This document shows positions 23,960-33,462 of a stretch of DNA of 64,000 nt, piece by piece (the first letter of the stretch is position 1; each line of letters begins with the position of its first letter). Below the pieces are notes generated by a model. It was not told the DNA's origin, did not search any database, and saw nothing but the letters and a program-made list of their open reading frames with translations. A program made the translations under genes and the position numbers. The stretch is from Nitrospira japonica (GTDB lineage Bacteria > Nitrospirota > Nitrospiria > Nitrospirales > Nitrospiraceae), in the NCBI RefSeq assembly GCF_900169565.1, contig NZ_LT828648.1, positions 1,366,876-1,430,875 on the forward strand, in the 5' to 3' direction.

Positions 23960-24904
23960 ATGCGCGTCATTTTCATGGGCACACCGGATTTCGCCGTTCC
24001 TTCGCTGGAAGCCCTTCTGAATTCCGACGACGAGGTCGTCGGAGTGGTCACGCAACCGGATCGGCCCAAGGGCCGCGGCCAGACAATGACGTTCTCGCCG
24101 GTGAAGGATCTCGCCGTGGGCCGGCAGATTCCCATTCTGCAGCCGACGAAGATGAAAGATCCCGATTTTCTGGCGGCCTTGCAGAAATGGGATGCCGACG
24201 TCATCGCGGTGGCGGCGTTCGGCCGAATCCTGCCTCCGTCAATTCTTTCCCTGCCACGTCATGGATGCCTCAACGTGCACGGCTCTCTGCTGCCGCGTTA
24301 TCGCGGCGCAGCACCCATCCAATGGGCGATCATCGAGGGCGAAACCGAAACCGGTATCACGACCATGCTGATGGACGAAGGCATGGATACAGGCGCGATC
24401 CTCCTCCAGGAACGGATGGCCATCGAGCCACAGGATACGGCCGGCAGCCTGTCCGTTCGCATGGCCGCACTGGGCGGACGATTGCTCAGTGAGACCATGA
24501 AGCATTTGAAATCCGGGACGCTCATGCCGAGCCCGCAGGATGATCGCCAAGCCACGCTCGCTCCGATCCTGAAAAAGGAAGATGGGCTTATCGATTGGAA
24601 TGAACCGGCCCGCTCCCTTGCCAATAGAATTCGCGGATTGAGTCCCTGGCCTGGCGCGTATACGTTCTCGCATGCCGACCGGTGGGTGCTCTGGAAGGCC
24701 GCTCCACTGAGCGAACCGGCTTCCGCAGCGCCCGGCACCATCGTGGACGTGACGAAACAGGCGCTTCATATTGCAACCGGCGACGGGCTTCTGGCGGTCA
24801 ACGAACTTCAGGTGGCCAACAGCCGTCGGATGATGGTGGCGCAGTATCTCGCCGGGCATCCCATCCAACCGGGCCTGCGTTTGGGCGTGCCCTCGCCGGT
24901 GTAG
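23960..24904 (+). CDS. fmt: Methionyl-tRNA formyltransferase
   Basis: 314 residues, the usual Fmt length. It formylates Met on initiator tRNA using 10-formyl-tetrahydrofolate. The N-terminus MRVIFMGTPDFAVPSLEAL is the family signature; the catalytic Asn-His-Asp set lies near CLNVHGSLLPRYRGAAPIQWAI. The C-terminal tRNA-binding domain is present. It is encoded opposite the initiator tRNA gene, which starts only 89 bases away. rsmB follows after 17 bases. Confidence 0.97.
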   Translation: MRVIFMGTPDFAVPSLEALLNSDDEVVGVVTQPDRPKGRGQTMTFSPVKDLAVGRQIPILQPTKMKDPDFLAALQKWDADVIAVAAFGRILPPSILSLPRHGCLNVHGSLLPRYRGAAPIQWAIIEGETETGITTMLMDEGMDTGAILLQERMAIEPQDTAGSLSVRMAALGGRLLSETMKHLKSGTLMPSPQDDRQATLAPILKKEDGLIDWNEPARSLANRIRGLSPWPGAYTFSHADRWVLWKAAPLSEPASAAPGTIVDVTKQALHIATGDGLLAVNELQVANSRRMMVAQYLAGHPIQPGLRLGVPSPV

Positions 24905-24921: not shown

Positions 24922-26346
24922 ATGGGCACCGAAACCCGTCCCTCCGTACGCAAACCCTCCGCACGATCGATCGCATTGGCCGTGCTCGTGGAATCGGTTC
25001 AATCGGCTGATCCCATCGATGGGCTTTTGGAGCGGGCTTGCGCGCCGATCAGCCATGATCCGAGGGAACGAGCGCTGGCCGTCGAACTTGTCTACGGAGT
25101 CCTGAGACATCAGGGAACGATCGACTGGAGGCTGCAGCCGGTTCTCGACAAGCCGATGCGAAAGCTGCCGCGGCTGATTCAGATGCTTCTCCGAATGGCC
25201 GCTCATCAGCTCCTCTCTCTCGACCGCATCCCTCATTCGGCGGCGGTCAACGAGTCGGTTCAATTGGCCAAAATCAACGTTCCCGTTTTGGGAAGAGATT
25301 GGAGCGGTTTCGTCAACGCCGTTCTGCGTGCCCTGCTTAGAAACCCTGAGCCGTCTTGGCCTTCCGCGAAGGACGACTCGATCCGCTCGCTCTCCGTGCG
25401 GTATTCCGTTCCGGAATGGCTGACCTGTCGATGGGTCGATCGGCTTGGGGCTGACGAGGCCGAGGCGGCTTGTGCCCATTCCGTCACCGTTCCACCCGTG
25501 ACACTCAGAGTAAATCGGCTCAAGGCGACGCGCGATGACTTTCTCGAACGGCTTCGACAAAGCGGGATATCGGCCTCCCCCACTCGGGTGAGTCCGGTCG
25601 GGATTACGATCGAGCCGCGCGGGCCCATCACGTCGCTCCCCGGCTTTTCGGAAGGCTGTTTCTATGTCGAGGACGAGGCGGCCCAGCTCATCCCTCCTCT
25701 TCTCGGTGTGAACTCCGGCGAAGCGATCCTCGATGCCTGTGCGGCGCCGGGAGGAAAGGCGACCCATATAGCCGAATTGATCGGAGACCGGGGCACCATC
25801 CTGGCTGTCGATAAGAAAGGAGCCAGGCTCGATCTCGTTGCCGCCAACTGCACGAGGTTGGGATTGCGAAGCGTCGTGGCGATCACCGGCGATGCCCGCT
25901 ACAGGGACGAATGGCAAAGGACCGCGACGCATTCCCATGATCCTTCCGAAGTCCGGAAAACGCTCGTCGACCGCGTACTGGTTGACGCTCCTTGCAGCGG
26001 GCTCGGAGTGTTGCGCCGGCATCCCGAGGCGAAGTGGCGGAAGGACGGCGCCGCACTCGCGCGCCATCAAAAACTGCAGCTGGAAATCCTTGATGCGCTC
26101 AGCGCAAGCTTGCGGCCCGGCGGCGTGCTGGTCTATAGTACCTGTTCGGTCGAGCCGGAAGAGACTCACGCCGTCATTGAGAGATTCCTCAATGCTCATG
26201 CAGACTTCCGACGAGAGTCGCTCGCGCCGTGGCTGCCGAATGAAGCACAGAATCTCCTGACCGGCCACGGAGACCTGACCACGGAGAATAACCGGTACGG
26301 GATGGACGTCTTCTACGCCTCACGCCTCAGGAAACGAGATTCATGA
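24922..26346 (+). CDS. rsmB: 16S rRNA (cytosine-967) methyltransferase RsmB
   Basis: 474 residues. An N-terminal NusB-like domain (SIALAVLVESVQ... ALAVELVYGVLRHQGTIDW) precedes the SAM-dependent RNA m5C methyltransferase core. The catalytic cysteines are in DAPCSGLGVLRRHPEAKW and YSTCSVEPEE; the SAM site is DACAAPGGKATHIAE. It follows fmt, the common order in bacteria (fmt-rsmB). Its last four bases overlap the rpe start (ATGA). Confidence 0.95.
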   Translation: MGTETRPSVRKPSARSIALAVLVESVQSADPIDGLLERACAPISHDPRERALAVELVYGVLRHQGTIDWRLQPVLDKPMRKLPRLIQMLLRMAAHQLLSLDRIPHSAAVNESVQLAKINVPVLGRDWSGFVNAVLRALLRNPEPSWPSAKDDSIRSLSVRYSVPEWLTCRWVDRLGADEAEAACAHSVTVPPVTLRVNRLKATRDDFLERLRQSGISASPTRVSPVGITIEPRGPITSLPGFSEGCFYVEDEAAQLIPPLLGVNSGEAILDACAAPGGKATHIAELIGDRGTILAVDKKGARLDLVAANCTRLGLRSVVAITGDARYRDEWQRTATHSHDPSEVRKTLVDRVLVDAPCSGLGVLRRHPEAKWRKDGAALARHQKLQLEILDALSASLRPGGVLVYSTCSVEPEETHAVIERFLNAHADFRRESLAPWLPNEAQNLLTGHGDLTTENNRYGMDVFYASRLRKRDS

Positions 26347-27023
26347 CCAGACCCGCCCGCATCGCTCCCTCGATTCTGTCGGCCGACTTTGCCCGACTGG
26401 CGGATGAAGTCGCCGCGGTGGAGCGCGGGGGCGCGGATTTTCTGCACGTCGACGTGATGGACGGCCACTTCGTGCCCAATCTGACCGTCGGCCCGCCGAT
26501 CGTCGAATCGTTGAAAAAGGTCACCAAGCTTCCGCTGGACGTTCATTTGATGATCACGAACGCGGATGCCTTCATCCCGGAGTTTGCCGCTGCAGGGGCC
26601 AGCTATCTGACCGTGCACGTCGAAGCCTGCCCCCATCTTCACCGGACGGTGCAGTTGATCAAGGAACATGGCGTCAAGGCCGGCGTGACGTTGAACCCCG
26701 CAACGTCGCTGCGCACGCTTGACGAAATTCTTCCGGATGTCGATTTGGTTCTGATCATGTCGGTCAATCCGGGATTCGGCGGGCAAAAATTCATCGACCA
26801 CTGTCTTCAGAAAGTCGCGAACGCCAGGCGGATGCTGGATCAGATCCACAGTCACGCCCTTTTGGAAGTCGACGGCGGCATCAAAGTGGACAATGCCGGC
26901 CGCATTCTGGCTGCCGGGGCGGAAGTGCTGGTGGCGGGTTCGGCGGTCTTCTCCAGCCCGGACTACGGCGCCACCATCGCGGCATTGCGCGCCGCCGGGC
27001 AGCCGGCTTCGGCGCATCGATAG
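26343..27023 (+). CDS. rpe: Ribulose-phosphate 3-epimerase
   Basis: 226 residues. It interconverts ribulose-5-phosphate and xylulose-5-phosphate in the pentose-phosphate and Calvin pathways. TIM-barrel motifs are intact: PSILSADFARL, HVDVMDGHFVPNLTVGP (metal-ligand Asp and His), MSVNPGFGGQKFI, and EVDGGIK. Coupled to rsmB by an ATGA overlap. pheS follows after 8 bases with a GTG start. Confidence 0.96.
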   Translation: MTRPARIAPSILSADFARLADEVAAVERGGADFLHVDVMDGHFVPNLTVGPPIVESLKKVTKLPLDVHLMITNADAFIPEFAAAGASYLTVHVEACPHLHRTVQLIKEHGVKAGVTLNPATSLRTLDEILPDVDLVLIMSVNPGFGGQKFIDHCLQKVANARRMLDQIHSHALLEVDGGIKVDNAGRILAAGAEVLVAGSAVFSSPDYGATIAALRAAGQPASAHR

Positions 27024-27031
27024 GGCCTGGG

Positions 27032-28594
27032 GTGGATATCGCAGCTCTCATCGACAGTCTGCATCCCCTGGAAATCAGGGTCCTCTCGGCGTTCTCCGAC
27101 AACGGTGACCGCGCGATGGAGACCGAGCAGTTGGCCGCGGCTGCCGGACTGGAAGCCTCTCAGATCAGCATGGCGGTGGAGTGGCTGTTGGCCAAATCGC
27201 TCCTCGCCGTCGAAAAAGAAACCGTCACGCCCATCGTGTCACTGACCAAGACCGGCGAGCAGTATATCGAAAAACCATCGCCGATCGAGATGGTCCTGTC
27301 CGTCGCGCGCGAGGCCGCGAGCACGGGCAAACGCCTCACCATCCAGGACCTGCAGACCCGCGAACACCTTGAGCCGTCGGATGTCAGCGGGGCCATCGGG
27401 GCCTTGAAAAAGGAAGGGGCCCTCTTGATCGTTCAGGGCGGCTGCCTCGAGTCGACGGGAAGGTCGAGTCCCACCGCTGAAACCCTGCGGGGATTGCTCC
27501 AACAGCTTCAGCACGGATCTCGAACTCTGGAGACCTTCTCCGAATTCGAGCAACGCGTGATCGATGCGCATGCCGTCAAGCGCGGAAAGGTCAAGGAGCC
27601 CTTTCGAGTCGATGATCGCGTGACCCGCCTGTTGAAGCCGACGGCCGAGGGTCTGGATGCGTTGAAACACCTGTCCCAGCAGGACGCGGCCGAGGAAGTC
27701 TCCCAGCTGACGCCTGAACTCTTAAAAGAGGGCGGCTGGAAAACGAAGCGATTCCGCAAGTACACCATCAGTCTGCGGGCACCCAGGATCGCTCCGGGAC
27801 GGCGCCATCCCTATCGCGAATTTCTCGATACGGTCAAAACCAAGCTTGTCAGCATGGGCTTCCAGGAAATGCGGGGGTCGCTGGTCGAGACCGAGTTCTG
27901 GGACATGGACGCGCTGTTCATGCCGCAGTTTCACCCGGCCCGCGATATCCACGACGTCTATTTTGTGAAGAGTCCCACGCATGCCCGGAGTGTGGCAGAG
28001 CCCTTCCTCACACGCGTGAAAGAGGTCCATGAGCGGGGAGGAAACACCGGATCGACCGGCTGGGGCTACACGTTCGACTTGCAGCGGGCCAGTCGGTTGG
28101 TCCTGCGGAGCCAGGGCACGGCGGTATCCGCCCACCGGCTGGCGTCCAATCCGCTGATTCCCGGGAAATATTTTTCGATCGCCCGGTGCTTTCGCTATGA
28201 TCAGGTCGATGCGACTCACGCGACGGACTTTTTCCAGGTTGAAGGGATCGTACTGGGCGAAGATATCAATTTCCGGACGCTGCTCGGCCTCCTGAATCTC
28301 TTTGCGAGGGAAGTTGCCCAGGCAAAGGAGGTCAAATTCCTTCCGGCCTATTTTCCTTTCACGGAGCCGTCGGTGGAATTGCATGTGCGCCATCCCCGTC
28401 TTGGCTGGATCGAGCTCGGCGGTGCCGGGCTCTTCCGTCCGGAGGTCGCCGCGCCTCTCGGCGTGCAGGTGCCGGTGATCGCCTGGGGATTGGGGCTTGA
28501 CCGCATGGCGATGGTGGCGCTGGGTATTCATGACATCCGTGAACTCTTCACCGACAATCTCGATCTCATCCGCTCCACCCGCGGAGTCGTCTAG
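27032..28594 (+). CDS. pheS: Phenylalanyl-tRNA synthetase alpha subunit, archaeal/eukaryotic type
   Basis: 520 residues, far longer than the usual bacterial PheS (about 340). The extra N-terminal part (about 1-240) contains winged-helix-like segments, such as AGLEASQISMAVEWLLAKSLLAV, as in archaeal and eukaryotic PheRS. The class II catalytic core starts near HPYREFLDTVKTKLVSMGFQEMRGS and includes DATHATDFFQVEGIV and the Gly-rich motif 3 with GLGLDRMAM. The start is GTG. It lies 8 bases after rpe and is paired with pheT. Confidence 0.93.
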   Translation: MDIAALIDSLHPLEIRVLSAFSDNGDRAMETEQLAAAAGLEASQISMAVEWLLAKSLLAVEKETVTPIVSLTKTGEQYIEKPSPIEMVLSVAREAASTGKRLTIQDLQTREHLEPSDVSGAIGALKKEGALLIVQGGCLESTGRSSPTAETLRGLLQQLQHGSRTLETFSEFEQRVIDAHAVKRGKVKEPFRVDDRVTRLLKPTAEGLDALKHLSQQDAAEEVSQLTPELLKEGGWKTKRFRKYTISLRAPRIAPGRRHPYREFLDTVKTKLVSMGFQEMRGSLVETEFWDMDALFMPQFHPARDIHDVYFVKSPTHARSVAEPFLTRVKEVHERGGNTGSTGWGYTFDLQRASRLVLRSQGTAVSAHRLASNPLIPGKYFSIARCFRYDQVDATHATDFFQVEGIVLGEDINFRTLLGLLNLFAREVAQAKEVKFLPAYFPFTEPSVELHVRHPRLGWIELGGAGLFRPEVAAPLGVQVPVIAWGLGLDRMAMVALGIHDIRELFTDNLDLIRSTRGVV

Positions 28595-28596
28595 GC

Positions 28597-30312
28597 ATGC
28601 CGACCATTACGATCTTCAGACAGGATCTCGAACAACTGCTGGCGGGGCCGGCCAAACCTCCCTCACCGGTCACGTCCGACCAATTGGACGAGTGGCTGAT
28701 GTTGGTCAAGGGAGAACTCAAAGGACAGAGTCCCGACACCGGTGAGCTGCGGATCGAACTACAAGATAGCAACCGACCCGATCTGTGGTGCTGTGAAGGG
28801 ATCGCACGGCAAATCCGTATCAAGCAAACCGGGGCGACCGTTCCCTATACGTTTCTGTCACAGCCAGGTCCCCCGGCCAAGCAGGTCGTAGTAACGGCAG
28901 GATTGGAAGAGCTGAGACCCTATGTGGCGGCTTGCACGGCGACCGGGTATCGAGTCACTCAGGAGGGACTGGCGCAGCTGATCCAGACGCAGGAAAAACT
29001 GGCGGAGATCTTCGGACGCAAGCGCCGCACGGTCTCCATCGGCCTCTATCGTTTGCCCGCGATCGAGTTTCCCGTTTCTTATGAAGCCGTGGCGCCTGAC
29101 AGCGCCAGGTTTACCCCGTTGGGCATGACGACGGTCATGACGCTCGGCGAGATGCTGCTGGTCCATCCGAAGGGGCTTGAGTTCGGCGGGATCGTCGCGG
29201 GAAAAGAGCGGGTTCCATTGCTTCGAGACGCCAAGGGGCAAATCCTATCCTTCCCTCCGATCATCAACAGCAGGGAAATCGGCGAGGTCCGCGTGGGCGA
29301 CGACGCCTTGTTCGTCGAAGTGACGGGGACGGACCTCTCGATGGTCATTCTGACGCTCAACATTTTTGCGGCGAATTTGGCCGACCGGGGCGCGGCGATC
29401 GAGCCCGTGGAAGTCGTCTATCCGTTCAAGACTGATCTGGGGCAGCGTGTGGTGACGCCCCGTGACCTGGGCCGAGAGCGGACGCTCTCACTCGCCACCA
29501 TCGAGCGGGCGCTTGGGCAGGCGATGGACGCGCGGGAGGTGAGTCAGGCGCTCCGGAGTTACGGATATGGGGTAACGGTGGACCAGGAAGACGTCACTGT
29601 GCGGCTTCCGATCTATCGGCATGACCTCATGCATCCCATGGACGTGGTGGAAGACGTGGCGATCAGTCGTGGGTTTTCCGAATTCCTTCCCGTCATGCCG
29701 TCGCAATTCACGGTCGGCGGTCTCTCGAGCCTGGAGACGCTTTCCGATCGCGCTAGGGGCTTGATGGTCGGCATGGGGTTCCAGGAGATCATCTCGAATA
29801 TTCTCGGCTCACCCCAGTTACTGTGCGATGCCATGCGATTGAACGGAACGGAATGGGGACGGCTGGTGCAGGTCGACAACGTCATGTCGCAGAATTTTTC
29901 GGCGCTGCGCCAATGGATGTTGCCGTCGTTGCTGCGGGTGGAAGCCGCGTCCAGCCGGGCCTTTTTCCCTCACCGCCTTTTCGAAGCGGGTGAGGTCGCG
30001 CGGCCCGATCCGGCTCACGAACTGGGCGGAGAGACGGTGATGATGTTAGGCGCGCTGATCGCGCATGCGGAGGCCAACTTTTCCGAGATCCACTCCTGCC
30101 TGGACGCGCTGCTCTATTATCTCGATTGCGCCTACAAACTCGAATCGGTCCAACATCCCTCGTTTCTCGAGGGGCGAGCCGGTCGTATCGTGGGCGATGA
30201 CGGCACAGTGTTGGGAGTCATCGGGGAGTTGCACCCGGAAGTGCTCGAACGCTGGCAAATCACCGTTCCTGCCGTATCCTTCGAGATCGATCTCTCGGCA
30301 CTGGACACATGA
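28597..30312 (+). CDS. pheT: Phenylalanyl-tRNA synthetase beta subunit, archaeal/eukaryotic type
   Basis: 571 residues, much shorter than the bacterial PheT (about 800). It starts at the archaeal-style N-terminus (MPTITIFRQDLEQLL) and has IELQDSNRPDLWCCEGIARQI, a family mark. No EMAP-like tRNA-binding domain and no C-terminal FDX-ACB domain are seen. The B3/B4 editing region, a B5 domain and the catalytic-like core are present. It follows pheS after 2 bases, and runs convergent with rplT. Confidence 0.92.
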   Translation: MPTITIFRQDLEQLLAGPAKPPSPVTSDQLDEWLMLVKGELKGQSPDTGELRIELQDSNRPDLWCCEGIARQIRIKQTGATVPYTFLSQPGPPAKQVVVTAGLEELRPYVAACTATGYRVTQEGLAQLIQTQEKLAEIFGRKRRTVSIGLYRLPAIEFPVSYEAVAPDSARFTPLGMTTVMTLGEMLLVHPKGLEFGGIVAGKERVPLLRDAKGQILSFPPIINSREIGEVRVGDDALFVEVTGTDLSMVILTLNIFAANLADRGAAIEPVEVVYPFKTDLGQRVVTPRDLGRERTLSLATIERALGQAMDAREVSQALRSYGYGVTVDQEDVTVRLPIYRHDLMHPMDVVEDVAISRGFSEFLPVMPSQFTVGGLSSLETLSDRARGLMVGMGFQEIISNILGSPQLLCDAMRLNGTEWGRLVQVDNVMSQNFSALRQWMLPSLLRVEAASSRAFFPHRLFEAGEVARPDPAHELGGETVMMLGALIAHAEANFSEIHSCLDALLYYLDCAYKLESVQHPSFLEGRAGRIVGDDGTVLGVIGELHPEVLERWQITVPAVSFEIDLSALDT

Positions 30313-30375
30313 TCGTGGATGGGGATCCTCCACGCGCCGGGTCGCGCGCGGAGGCGTAAAGAACCGGCGGTTCCG

Positions 30376-30744
30376 TTACGCGCCGGCCGGCGTCAACTGC
30401 TTCTTGGCCAACCCGATCAACTGTTCGAATCCCGCCGCATCCTTGATGGCCATATCCGAGAGGATCTTGCGATCGAGCAGCACGTTGGCCTTTTTCAAGG
30501 CGCTGATAAAGCGCCCGTAGGACAGGCCCTGCGCTCTGGTCGCGGCGCTGATACGGGCGATCCAGAGTTGGCGGAAATCCCGTTTCCGGTTCTTTCTGCC
30601 CGTATACGCATATTGTTGGCCCTTATCGACGGATTCGGTTGCCGACCTGAACAGGCGGCTCTTGGCTCCGTATTGGCCTTTCGCAAGCTTCAGCCGCTTC
30701 TTCCTTCTGGCCCGTGTTTTCGGTCCACCTTTTACGCGTGGCAT
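30376..30744 (-). CDS. rplT: 50S ribosomal protein L20
   Basis: 122 residues, very basic. It begins MPRVKGGPKTRARRKKRLKLAKG, the usual L20 N-terminus, with RDFRQLWIARISAATRAQGLSYGRFISALK in the middle. L20 is needed for early 50S assembly and often represses its own operon. It is last in thrS-infC-rpmI-rplT on the minus strand. The bacterial pheST pair that usually follows is absent here; archaeal-type pheST lies convergent instead. Confidence 0.98.
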   Translation of the reverse strand: MPRVKGGPKTRARRKKRLKLAKGQYGAKSRLFRSATESVDKGQQYAYTGRKNRKRDFRQLWIARISAATRAQGLSYGRFISALKKANVLLDRKILSDMAIKDAAGFEQLIGLAKKQLTPAGA

Positions 30745-31013: not shown

Positions 31014-31523
31014 TCAGTTCTTGGGTGCCACGATCATGATGAGGCTTCGGCCTTCCATCCGCGGGGCGTATTCGATTGTGCCGGTGTCCGCCAATTGTTC
31101 GATCACGGAGCTCATGAGCGACCGGCCCATCTCTTGGTTGGCCATTTCGCGTCCCCGATACGTGAGGGTGATCTTGGTCTTGTTTCCTTCTTCCAGGAAC
31201 GTCTTGATTTGCCGGACCTTGATTTCCAGATCGTGCTTGTCCGTTCTGGGACGCAACTTGATTTCCTTCACCTGTGTCGATTTCTGATGTCGCCGGTTCT
31301 GGTGGTCCTTCTTGCTCAACTCATACTTATATTTCCCGTAGTCCATGATGCGACAGACGGGAGGAGCCGAGGTGGGGGCGACCTCTACCAGATCGTAGCC
31401 GCCTTCCTGCGCCTGACGAAACGCTTCCGGGGTCGGAAGAATACCAAGTTGTTCACCCTCCGGGCCGATCACTCTGACTTCACGTACTCTGATTTCGCGG
31501 TTCACGCGCAGTTTGGGGACGAT
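31014..31523 (-). CDS. infC: Translation initiation factor IF-3, probable ATC start
   Basis: 169 residues. The N-domain ([23 protein letters not shown]), the linker ([29 protein letters not shown]) and the C-domain are complete. The nearest ATG (31562) would overlap thrS by 29 bases. An ATC at 31523-31521 lies just after GAGAGGTGG, which follows the thrS stop, and it begins the normal IF-3 N-terminus. Rare AUU/AUC starts in infC let IF-3 limit its own translation. I chose ATC. Confidence 0.9.
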
Positions 31524-31533
31524 AGGCCACCTC

Positions 31534-33462
31534 TCATGATGTCGGTGAAAGTTGTTGTGCACCCCGGTCTGCTTCCCGGCGGAGAAGGTCCAGAGCTCCG
31601 GCGACCGTCATGCTCCCGAGATTGGCGCCGCTGCGTCCGCGTACGGAGACCGAACCGCTCTGTACTTCACGGTCTCCGACCACGAACATGAAGGGGATCT
31701 TGGCCTTCTCAGCTTCCCTGATCTTGAGACCGATCTTTTCGTTGCGGAGGTCGGCGTCTGCGCGGAAGCCGGACGCTTTCATGTCGGCGGCCACCTTGGC
31801 GGCGTACTCGCGTTGGTTGTCGGTGATCGACATCACCACGGCCTGAACCGGCGCCAGCCAGGTCGGAAAGGCGCCCCCGTAATGTTCGATCAAGATTCCG
31901 AAGAACCGCTCGATCGAACCGAGCAGTGCGCGGTGAATCATGATGGGTTGATGAGCCTTGCCGTCCTCTCCGATGTAACCCAATTCGAATCGTTCCGGAT
32001 TGTTGAAATCCACCTGCACGGTCGAACATTGCCAGGATCGTCCCAGCGCGTCCTTGATCTTGATGTCGATCTTCGGGCCGTAAAAGGCGCCGCCCCCCGC
32101 GTCCAGTTGAAAGGCGATGTTCCGGCCCTTCAAGGCCGCCTCGAGCGCGCTCGTGGCCAGGCTCCAATGCTCGTCGCCTCCCACTGATTCCTTCGGCCTG
32201 GTGGACAAGAAGACCTCAAACTCGGCGAATCCGAACGTCCGTAGCATGAAGAAGGTGAAGTCGAGCACGCGACTGACTTCGGATTCGATCTGGTCCGGAC
32301 GGCAAAAGAGGTGGGCATCGTCCTGCGTGAATCCCCTCACGCGCAAAAGACCGTGAAGCACGCCCGTGCGTTCGTAGCGGTAGACGGTTCCGAGCTCCCC
32401 GTATCGGACAGGCAAGTCGCGGTAACTCCGAAGCCGCGATTTGTAGATCATGATGTGATACGGACAGTTCATCGGCTTCAGCTGGTAGTCGCTTCCTTCC
32501 AGCTTCATGGCCGCAAACATGTTTTCGCGGTAGTAGTCCACATGGCCGCTGGTTTTCCAGAGATCAAGCCGAGCGACGTGCGGGGAGTACACTAACTCGT
32601 AACCGTCCTTTATGTGCTGCTCGCGCCAGAAGTTTTCGATCAACAGCCTGATGGCCGCTCCCTTCGGGTGCCAGAGAACGAGGCCCGGGCCGATTTCATC
32701 CTGGATCGAGATGAGATCCAGCTCTTTCCCGACTTTTCGATGATCGCGGCGTTTGATTTCCTCCAGGCGCGCAAGATGGGCGTCCAGTTCACCCTTCGTC
32801 GGAAAGGAGGTCCCGTAAATCCGCTGCAACATCGGATTACGCTCATCGCCACGCCAGTAGGCTCCGGCCGTGGTCAACAGCTTGAATGCGCCGACGTGGC
32901 CCGTCGTCGGGAGATGCGGGCCGCGGCAAAGATCGACGAAATCTCCCTGGCTATACGCCGTGATCGGCTCGCCGTCCGGAAATCCTTCGATGAGTTCCAC
33001 CTTGTACTGCTCACCACGCGAGCGGAAGAAGTCGATGGCTTCTGGTTTGCTGAATTCCCGTTTGGTGATTGTCAGATTGCGTCCGATAATTTCCGCGACT
33101 CGTTCTTCGATCTTGACCAGGTCTTCAGGCGTAAAAGGCCGGTCGAATGCGAAATCATAATAAAAGCCGTCCTCGAGCGCGGGACCGATCGTCAGTTGCG
33201 CGGAAGGAAACAGCTCCTTGACGGCCTGGGCCATGATGTGAGTGCTGCTGTGCCGATAGACCTCGCGACCCTCCATGCTGTCGAAACGAAGCGGTTCGAT
33301 CGTGGCGTCGCCCGCCAGCGGCTTCGAAAGATCCACCACCTGGCCATTGACCTTGGCGGCCAAGACTTGGGGATCCAACGCGCCCAGAGACGAAAGCGCG
33401 GTCTGAACGGATCCACCGTTGTCAATCGTCAGAGCCGGCCCATTTTTCACCACGACTTTCAT
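31534..33462 (-). CDS. thrS: Threonyl-tRNA synthetase
   Basis: 642 residues, the usual ThrRS length. An N-terminal TGS domain (about 1-60) is followed by the editing domain with HSSTHIMAQAVKELFP (the HxxxH zinc/editing motif), then the class II catalytic core with RVRGFTQDDAHLFCR and GSIERFFGILIEHYGG, and the C-terminal anticodon-binding domain. It is the first gene of thrS-infC-rpmI-rplT, downstream of tRNA-Val on the same strand. Confidence 0.98.
   Translation of the reverse strand: MKVVVKNGPALTIDNGGSVQTALSSLGALDPQVLAAKVNGQVVDLSKPLAGDATIEPLRFDSMEGREVYRHSSTHIMAQAVKELFPSAQLTIGPALEDGFYYDFAFDRPFTPEDLVKIEERVAEIIGRNLTITKREFSKPEAIDFFRSRGEQYKVELIEGFPDGEPITAYSQGDFVDLCRGPHLPTTGHVGAFKLLTTAGAYWRGDERNPMLQRIYGTSFPTKGELDAHLARLEEIKRRDHRKVGKELDLISIQDEIGPGLVLWHPKGAAIRLLIENFWREQHIKDGYELVYSPHVARLDLWKTSGHVDYYRENMFAAMKLEGSDYQLKPMNCPYHIMIYKSRLRSYRDLPVRYGELGTVYRYERTGVLHGLLRVRGFTQDDAHLFCRPDQIESEVSRVLDFTFFMLRTFGFAEFEVFLSTRPKESVGGDEHWSLATSALEAALKGRNIAFQLDAGGGAFYGPKIDIKIKDALGRSWQCSTVQVDFNNPERFELGYIGEDGKAHQPIMIHRALLGSIERFFGILIEHYGGAFPTWLAPVQAVVMSITDNQREYAAKVAADMKASGFRADADLRNEKIGLKIREAEKAKIPFMFVVGDREVQSGSVSVRGRSGANLGSMTVAGALDLLRREADRGAQQLSPTS

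Follow-up and report, generated by a model that had tools for sequence, protein, structure and literature searches.

In Escherichia coli K-12, the genes for the two subunits of the bacterial phenylalanyl-tRNA synthetase (PheRS), pheS and pheT, lie co-directionally behind rplT, and the slot beside rplT is the usual place of bacterial pheST. The alpha subunit of the enzyme (PheS) makes Phe-tRNA and the beta subunit (PheT) edits Tyr-tRNA(Phe); PheRS of archaea and eukaryotes has no B8 anticodon-binding domain and carries DNA-binding-like N-terminal domains on alpha (PMC3275996, in the sections consulted). According to the part of Andam and Gogarten (2011, PMC3191353) that was available, archaeal PheRS is also found in Spirochaeta, Borrelia and Treponema, with Thermococcales as the nearest archaea and with subunits of 513–528 and 514–573 amino acids (aa). 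Here, a 64,000-nucleotide stretch of the Nitrospira japonica genome (contig NZ_LT828648.1, positions 1,366,876 to 1,430,875; hereafter the window) was analysed, in which a pheS–pheT pair of the archaeal/eukaryotic type adjoins rplT. The results indicate that the archaeal-type pair of Nitrospirota is very probably an ancient import from archaea, which is shared by several bacterial phyla and constitutes the sole PheRS of this organism.

Enzyme type, domains and copy number

The product of pheS gave 570.9 bits with the model NF003210 (cut-off 350), matching it over residues 9–517, and 275.9 bits with the Pfam core domain PF01409. PheT reached 437.3 bits with the archaeal model TIGR00471 (cut-off 282.65), and with the bacterial model TIGR00472 only 104.8 bits, which is under the cut-off of 402.65. 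The initial annotation had described a PheS of 520 aa with a long N-terminal winged-helix part and a PheT of 571 aa free of EMAP-like and FDX-ACB domains. The lengths, coordinates and strands all proved correct, and the only Pfam domains of PheT were indeed B5 and CLM, the latter extending to residue 566 of 571; neither tRNA_bind (EMAP-like, B2) nor FDX-ACB (C-terminal B8) was found by Pfam in this protein. The N-terminal extension of PheS is likewise genuine, being covered by NF003210 and mostly modelled with confidence: residues 1–210 have predicted local distance difference test (pLDDT) values of mostly 82–93, with lower values for the first ten residues. In PheS of the archaeal/eukaryotic type, such an extension comprises DNA-binding folds, of which two are winged helices; the helix/strand pattern of this part in the predicted model would be compatible with a winged helix.

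Among structures compared by Foldseek, the best match of the PheS model was the full-length human cytosolic PheRS alpha (3l4g_C; 525 columns) at a root-mean-square deviation (rmsd) of 18.7, and the packing of the domains is therefore not matched. The VIA rows for PheS span residues 254–518, and no chain is listed over the N-terminal part. The PheT model closely follows the N-terminal fragment of Pyrococcus horikoshii PheT (2cxi_A; template modelling score TMt 0.95, rmsd 1.6, 362 columns). Asn224 of PheT aligned with Asn217 of P. horikoshii and was invariant in all 18 sequences of the alignment (A4); in the consulted text of PMC3275996, Asn217 (human 238) replaces the bacterial editing His in the pocket. 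In common with the archaeal and eukaryotic cytosolic enzymes (P. horikoshii 2cxi, human 3l4g), the pair has its domain content, the editing-pocket Asn and the fold of the PheT N-terminal part, but its host is a bacterium and its PheT is 32–37% identical to the archaeal sequences in A4.

The predicted enzyme would be an (alpha-beta)2 heterotetramer, in which PheS would activate phenylalanine and transfer it to tRNA, whereas the B3/B4 part of PheT would clear Tyr-tRNA(Phe) through an archaeal-type pocket, in which Asn224 stands where bacterial enzymes have His. The tRNA would be held with the help of the N-terminal domains of PheS and not by a C-terminal B8 domain. Archaeon-like proofreading is thereby predicted for these bacteria and could matter under oxidative stress, when meta-tyrosine is concerned; human cytosolic PheRS is described in the available part of PMC3275996 as failing to clear this amino acid.

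The genome consists of one contig of 4,084,817 bases and is 99.96% complete. A whole-genome search with TIGR00472 matched this PheT (about 104 bits, owing to the C-terminal domains that both types share) and one further place at 22.9 bits, which turned out to be methionyl-tRNA synthetase; the general PheS model matched one place only in the whole genome. The bacterial-type pheST, whose presence elsewhere the initial annotation had named as the point to check, was thus not found by either search. As these are the only pheS and pheT of a complete genome, the pair is the only phenylalanyl-tRNA synthetase of the cell, of the archaeal/eukaryotic kind, as far as function can be predicted. Contamination, mis-binning or a PheRS-like paralogue taken for a working enzyme would be the trivial explanation, and the hazard is real, since eukaryotic-looking copies stand beside a bacterial PheT in at least one metagenome-assembled genome (MAG). 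Such an artefact is refuted for the one-contig genome of N. japonica with its sole PheRS, and the same pair with the same neighbours recurs in genome after genome, which leaves this explanation a practically negligible probability. The MAG in question, of Tildeniella (G296; L308, L435, L438), combines a PheS grouping with eukaryotes, an archaeal-type PheT and a bacterial PheT, and is likely contaminated by eukaryotic DNA.

Probable archaeal origin of the pair

For phylogenetic analysis, a degenerate pattern of archaeal-type PheS motifs was scanned through genome contigs, yielding at least 80 named loci, and these were supplemented by phylum searches. Three trees were built: PheS alone (109 rows), PheS with PheT (81 rows) and a careful concatenated PheS+PheT tree (45 rows). 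Of the 59 rows for archaeal-type Nitrospirota, 26 entered the 81-row tree, together with seven loci from the phylum of locus L366, 12 spirochaete rows, seven from other bacteria and 29 from archaea; the 45 rows are a subset of it, and those dropped include the long branches L337 (PLANCT_ACE) and L354 (Micrarchaeota).

The three trees agree on the main points. In the PheS tree, PheS of the window stands beside Nitrospira and other Nitrospirota records, and the assignment of the phylum as Nitrospirota is based on these named relatives. In the 45-row tree, a main bacterial clade (100/100, with a stem of 0.67) unites Nitrospirota (99/97), part of Spirochaetota (100/99), Fermentibacterota and part of the phylum of L366. 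Its sister group is formed by Thermococci, Methanofastidiosia and a DPANN archaeon (L350), and the union of the two (100/100) lies inside the other archaea. The same two groupings were obtained from each subunit alone, with supports of 100 and 99. Hence, tree building, which the initial annotation had proposed as a check, places both subunits, separately and jointly, as sister to Thermococci/Methanofastidiosia and not among bacterial-type enzymes. Within the main clade, Nitrospirota join the spirochaetes with 89/83; the order of phyla there is weak, and therefore the first bacterial recipient of the pair is not named. Among Nitrospirota, the members of the class of the window group with 86/85 and those of its order with 100/100, and the archaeal-type PheST of two families outside this class, f16 and f37, are sisters (100/100).

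Archaeal-type PheRS of WOR-3 (L307), Myxococcota (L316) and Planctomycetia (L351) likewise occurs in bacteria, but forms a separate, second clade (100/100, 45-row tree). A single clade of all bacterial archaeal-type PheRS was rejected on the 45-row set by the approximately unbiased (AU) test (p-AU 1.2e-10). In Planctomycetota, archaeal-type loci were also seen in one further genome (G299; L337, L545), of which the long-branched L337 groups with Nitrospirota (98, 81-row tree) and points to a later transfer; 19 of 59 Planctomycetota genomes fail the bacterial PheT model.

The link between spirochaetes and Thermococcales reproduces the result given in the consulted part of PMC3191353 and served as a positive control. 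The spirochaete enzyme is of the same type as that of Nitrospirota, has similar subunit lengths and the same nearest archaea, and falls into the same bacterial clade in the present trees. In contrast, the spirochaete pair was not found beside rplT (none of eight stretches), and the Nitrospirota type is class-wide, with switching inside the phylum.

Distribution of the two types

The PheT type was called by the TIGR00471 and TIGR00472 cut-offs in 295 Nitrospirota genomes of 39 families (f1–f39). It was archaeal in 164 genomes and bacterial in 119, while 12 passed neither cut-off; comparison of both tables gave no genome among the 295 that passed both. The families are unmixed, since in each of the 39 all genomes above a cut-off have one type. 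Archaeal-type families are f1–f11, which make up the class of the window, together with f12, f13, f16, f19, f20 and f37; the bacterial type was found in f14, f15, f17, f18, f21–f23, f25–f36, f38 and f39, and the single genome of f24 gave only a partial bacterial PheT hit under the cut-off. In the class of the window, every genome with a PheT above either cut-off is of the archaeal type and has no bacterial PheT. Outside Nitrospirota, TIGR00471 was passed by 27 of 149 genomes of Spirochaetota, a mixed phylum, and by 18 of 64 genomes of the phylum of L366.

The transfer proposed in the initial annotation is therefore upheld as an event, although not as one local to this genome, since it is common to the 11 sampled families of the class and to six more families of the phylum. 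Recent import was ruled out because the type is class-wide and the composition of the genes is native; the import is old, shared and inherited, and not peculiar to N. japonica. No plasmid record covered 80% of the archaeal-type PheT query, four weak hits being confined to the C-terminal part shared with bacterial PheT, and none of 19 pattern matches in viral contigs was confirmed as an archaeal-type PheRS.

Bacterial-type PheT of Nitrospirota also varies in length. Most of these proteins (L103–L107, L110–L122, L124) have about 680–720 aa, match the bacterial model from position ~157 and seem to be without the EMAP-like domain, a short form that is also found in many Planctomycetota. Full-length proteins (~803 aa) were seen in f14, f17 and the genome G154.

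Gene arrangement beside rplT

Synteny was compared in 80 stretches around pheT, mapped by tblastn, of which 58 were archaeal-type and 22 bacterial-type Nitrospirota. Among the archaeal-type stretches, 37 have rplT downstream of pheT and oppositely oriented, two (both f37) have it upstream and in the same orientation, and 19 do not contain it; among the bacterial-type ones, 17 have it upstream in the same orientation and five do not contain it. Accordingly, archaeal-type pheT is tail to tail with rplT in 37 of the 39 loci that hold rplT, whereas bacterial-type pheT is co-directional with it in 17 of 17. The gap between pheT and rplT measures 63–144 bp within f1. In f37 (L101, L102) the order thrS-infC-rpmI-rplT-pheS-pheT is kept with archaeal-type pheST. 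Near archaeal-type pheT of spirochaetes, Fermentibacterota, Planctomycetota and the phylum of L366, rplT was absent from all 20 stretches, so that adjacency to rplT characterises Nitrospirota of the archaeal type. The window shares with E. coli the neighbourhood up to rplT (thrS-infC-rpmI-rplT), but in E. coli a PheRS of the other type follows rplT on its strand, while in the window pheT is opposed to rplT. The break of the usual gene order exactly at rplT, with pheST adjoining on the opposite strand, had been stated in the initial annotation, and the coordinates confirm it.

Order of events within Nitrospirota

The organismal background was approximated by RpoB and RpoC (RpoBC). Out of 58 genomes wanted, G028 and G198 lacked a match to rpoB, which gave a quick tree of 56 rows; the f3 genome G282 (21% filled) was dropped from the careful tree of 55 rows, and the rows of Planctomycetota and Fermentibacterota were also dropped for the AU test. 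In the careful tree, the archaeal-type f16 groups with the bacterial-type f14 (99/96) and then with f18 (95/96), and the archaeal-type f37 is sister to rows of 18 bacterial-type families (100/99). On the RpoBC tree, at least three changes of PheRS type, in one direction or the other, are required. One type change sufficed in 0% of 200 bootstrap trees, and a single organismal clade of the archaeal-type families was rejected (p-AU 0.011). For the tree of bacterial-type PheST, six loci were skipped (five duplicate genomes and the redundant L036 of f14), and a reduced version omitted four long or gappy rows. The full-length bacterial-type PheST of G154 (f27, L123) forms a long branch off its relatives, possibly as a result of another exchange. 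RpoB of f20 (G010, G019; L597, L598) has ~1720 aa instead of the usual ~1340 owing to a large insertion, and the rpoB model is split in these genomes, with matches at 8–221 and from 254/272 on, about 1.4 kb apart.

Taken as an ancient import, the archaeal-type pair would have been donated once to a bacterium by an archaeon near Thermococci/Methanofastidiosia and would then have moved from one bacterial phylum to another. It would have been acquired by an early ancestor of Nitrospirota, the pair would have settled beside rplT, at the usual site of bacterial pheST, and the bacterial pair would then have been lost in archaeal-type Nitrospirota. Several results weigh against this scheme. Relative to the bacterial slot, the window pair is on the other strand, and hence no simple gene-for-gene swap took place; archaeal-type pheST in both the native slot and the native orientation was found in the two f37 loci only. 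Of the 19 archaeal-type Nitrospirota stretches without rplT, nine have more than 8 kb on each side of pheT. Moreover, the RpoBC tree leaves the deep order of the families unsettled, and a single clade of bacterial-type Nitrospirota PheST (28 rows, support 59) was not rejected, which fits an ancestor still carrying the bacterial pair. Accordingly, of the transfer and replacement suggested by the initial annotation, transfer is borne out by the trees, while a replacement of the bacterial pair at this locus is inferred, the place being conserved but the orientation reversed.

The course of events after the arrival of the pair can be read in different ways. One possibility, which we regard with some reserve, is two-way traffic, with the archaeal pair present in the last common ancestor of Nitrospirota and a later return to a bacterial pair in the families of bacterial type, f14 and f18 among them, partly in the same slot at rplT. 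In the quick RpoBC tree, f12, f20, f13, f19 and f1–f11 do branch outside one 26-row clade (support 100) that contains all bacterial-type families plus f16 and f37; the position of f37 beside 18 bacterial-type families and the sister relation of f16 and f37 PheST are what a retained ancestral copy would give, and the rejection of a single archaeal-type clade points the same way. This 26-row clade, however, dissolves in the careful tree, where f17 drops to the base, and the bacterial-type copies of Nitrospirota are compatible with one origin (under thin sampling of other phyla), which speaks against many re-acquisitions and fits retention better. In its fullest form, namely that archaeal PheRS beside rplT was ancestral to all Nitrospirota and that about half of the families later returned, in that slot, to a PheRS of the bacterial kind, the proposal appears rather unlikely; if true, a single locus would have seen an essential enzyme exchanged both ways between its two kinds.

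Tentatively, the pair may instead have been imported into one Nitrospirota lineage and have spread from there to others (f16, f37), each time replacing a bacterial pair. Family f37 would be a direct example, with the archaeal pair co-directional behind rplT where its sister families hold the bacterial pair, and the bacterial-type trees join f14 and f18 with the 18-family clade (96; 89 in the reduced set). Most of the history nevertheless looks vertical, because the archaeal-type tree broadly tracks organism groups (the class and the order of the window), and the swap in f37 is unreadable from its flanks, as the genes downstream of pheT include no informative ones shared with bacterial-type relatives. 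A single ancestral locus holding both pairs, the bacterial one behind rplT and the archaeal one facing it, followed by differential loss by lineage, is improbable: one insertion would account for both arrangements, and the copies of each type can form a single clade in Nitrospirota, but none of the 295 genomes passes both cut-offs, and in the tblastn-mapped stretches the bacterial pair was not followed by rpe-rsmB-fmt, the upstream neighbours of the archaeal pair.

Relation to published work

Archaeal PheRS in spirochaetes has already been published (PMC3191353), and a term search of the accessible part of that paper gave no occurrence of "Nitrospir". No mention of archaeal PheRS in Nitrospirota or of its arrangement beside rplT was found in the open-access literature searched, and such reports may be in print in subscription papers, which lay outside the search. 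New as far as the searched literature goes are the extent of the type in Nitrospirota, the conserved arrangement at rplT and the repeated type switches. A cross-domain transfer of an essential enzyme, well known in spirochaetes, is thus extended to an entire class of Nitrospirota, and several phyla are tied to one transfer. The pheST pair may be used as a marker of shared ancestry for deep Nitrospirota branches, and the phylum offers replicate natural swaps of PheRS beside otherwise constant neighbours.

The locus and its neighbours

The features of the locus are given in Table 1. On the plus strand, pheS and pheT are the last two genes of the run fmt-rsmB-rpe-pheS-pheT.

Table 1. Positions in the window of the pheST pair, its editing-site codon and adjoining genes.
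Feature	Position	Strand	Details
pheS, archaeal/eukaryotic-type alpha subunit	27032..28594	+	520 aa, GTG start; NF003210, PF01409
pheT, archaeal-type beta subunit	28597..30312	+	571 aa; TIGR00471, B5 + CLM
PheT Asn224 codon, position of P. horikoshii Asn217 in editing pocket	29266..29268	+	alignment
63-bp tail-to-tail gap, pheT/rplT	30313..30375	.	sequence
rplT, 50S L20, end of thrS-infC-rpmI-rplT run	30376..30744	-	TIGR01032, 150.6 bits
rpmI, 50S L35	30782..30976	-	TIGR00001, 83.7 bits
infC, IF-3	31014..31562	-	TIGR00168, 223.9 bits
thrS	31534..33462	-	TIGR00418, 725.6 bits
rpe, upstream neighbour, same gene run as pheST	26343..27023	+	TIGR01163, 310.2 bits
rsmB	24922..26346	+	TIGR00563, 363.3 bits
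fmt	23960..24904	+	TIGR00460, 307 bits

A scan of the window with Rfam revealed two tRNAs only and no regulatory RNA near pheST, and matches to promoter and terminator patterns near the pair were at chance level. The start codon of pheS lies 8 bp past the stop codon of rpe, and this short gap suggests that rpe and pheS may be co-transcribed. In base composition, pheS and pheT are like their neighbours: G–C content overall and at third codon positions (GC3) is 0.61 and 0.75 in pheS, against 0.55–0.62 and 0.68–0.76 in the neighbouring genes. Such native values fit an old import with long residence in the genome.

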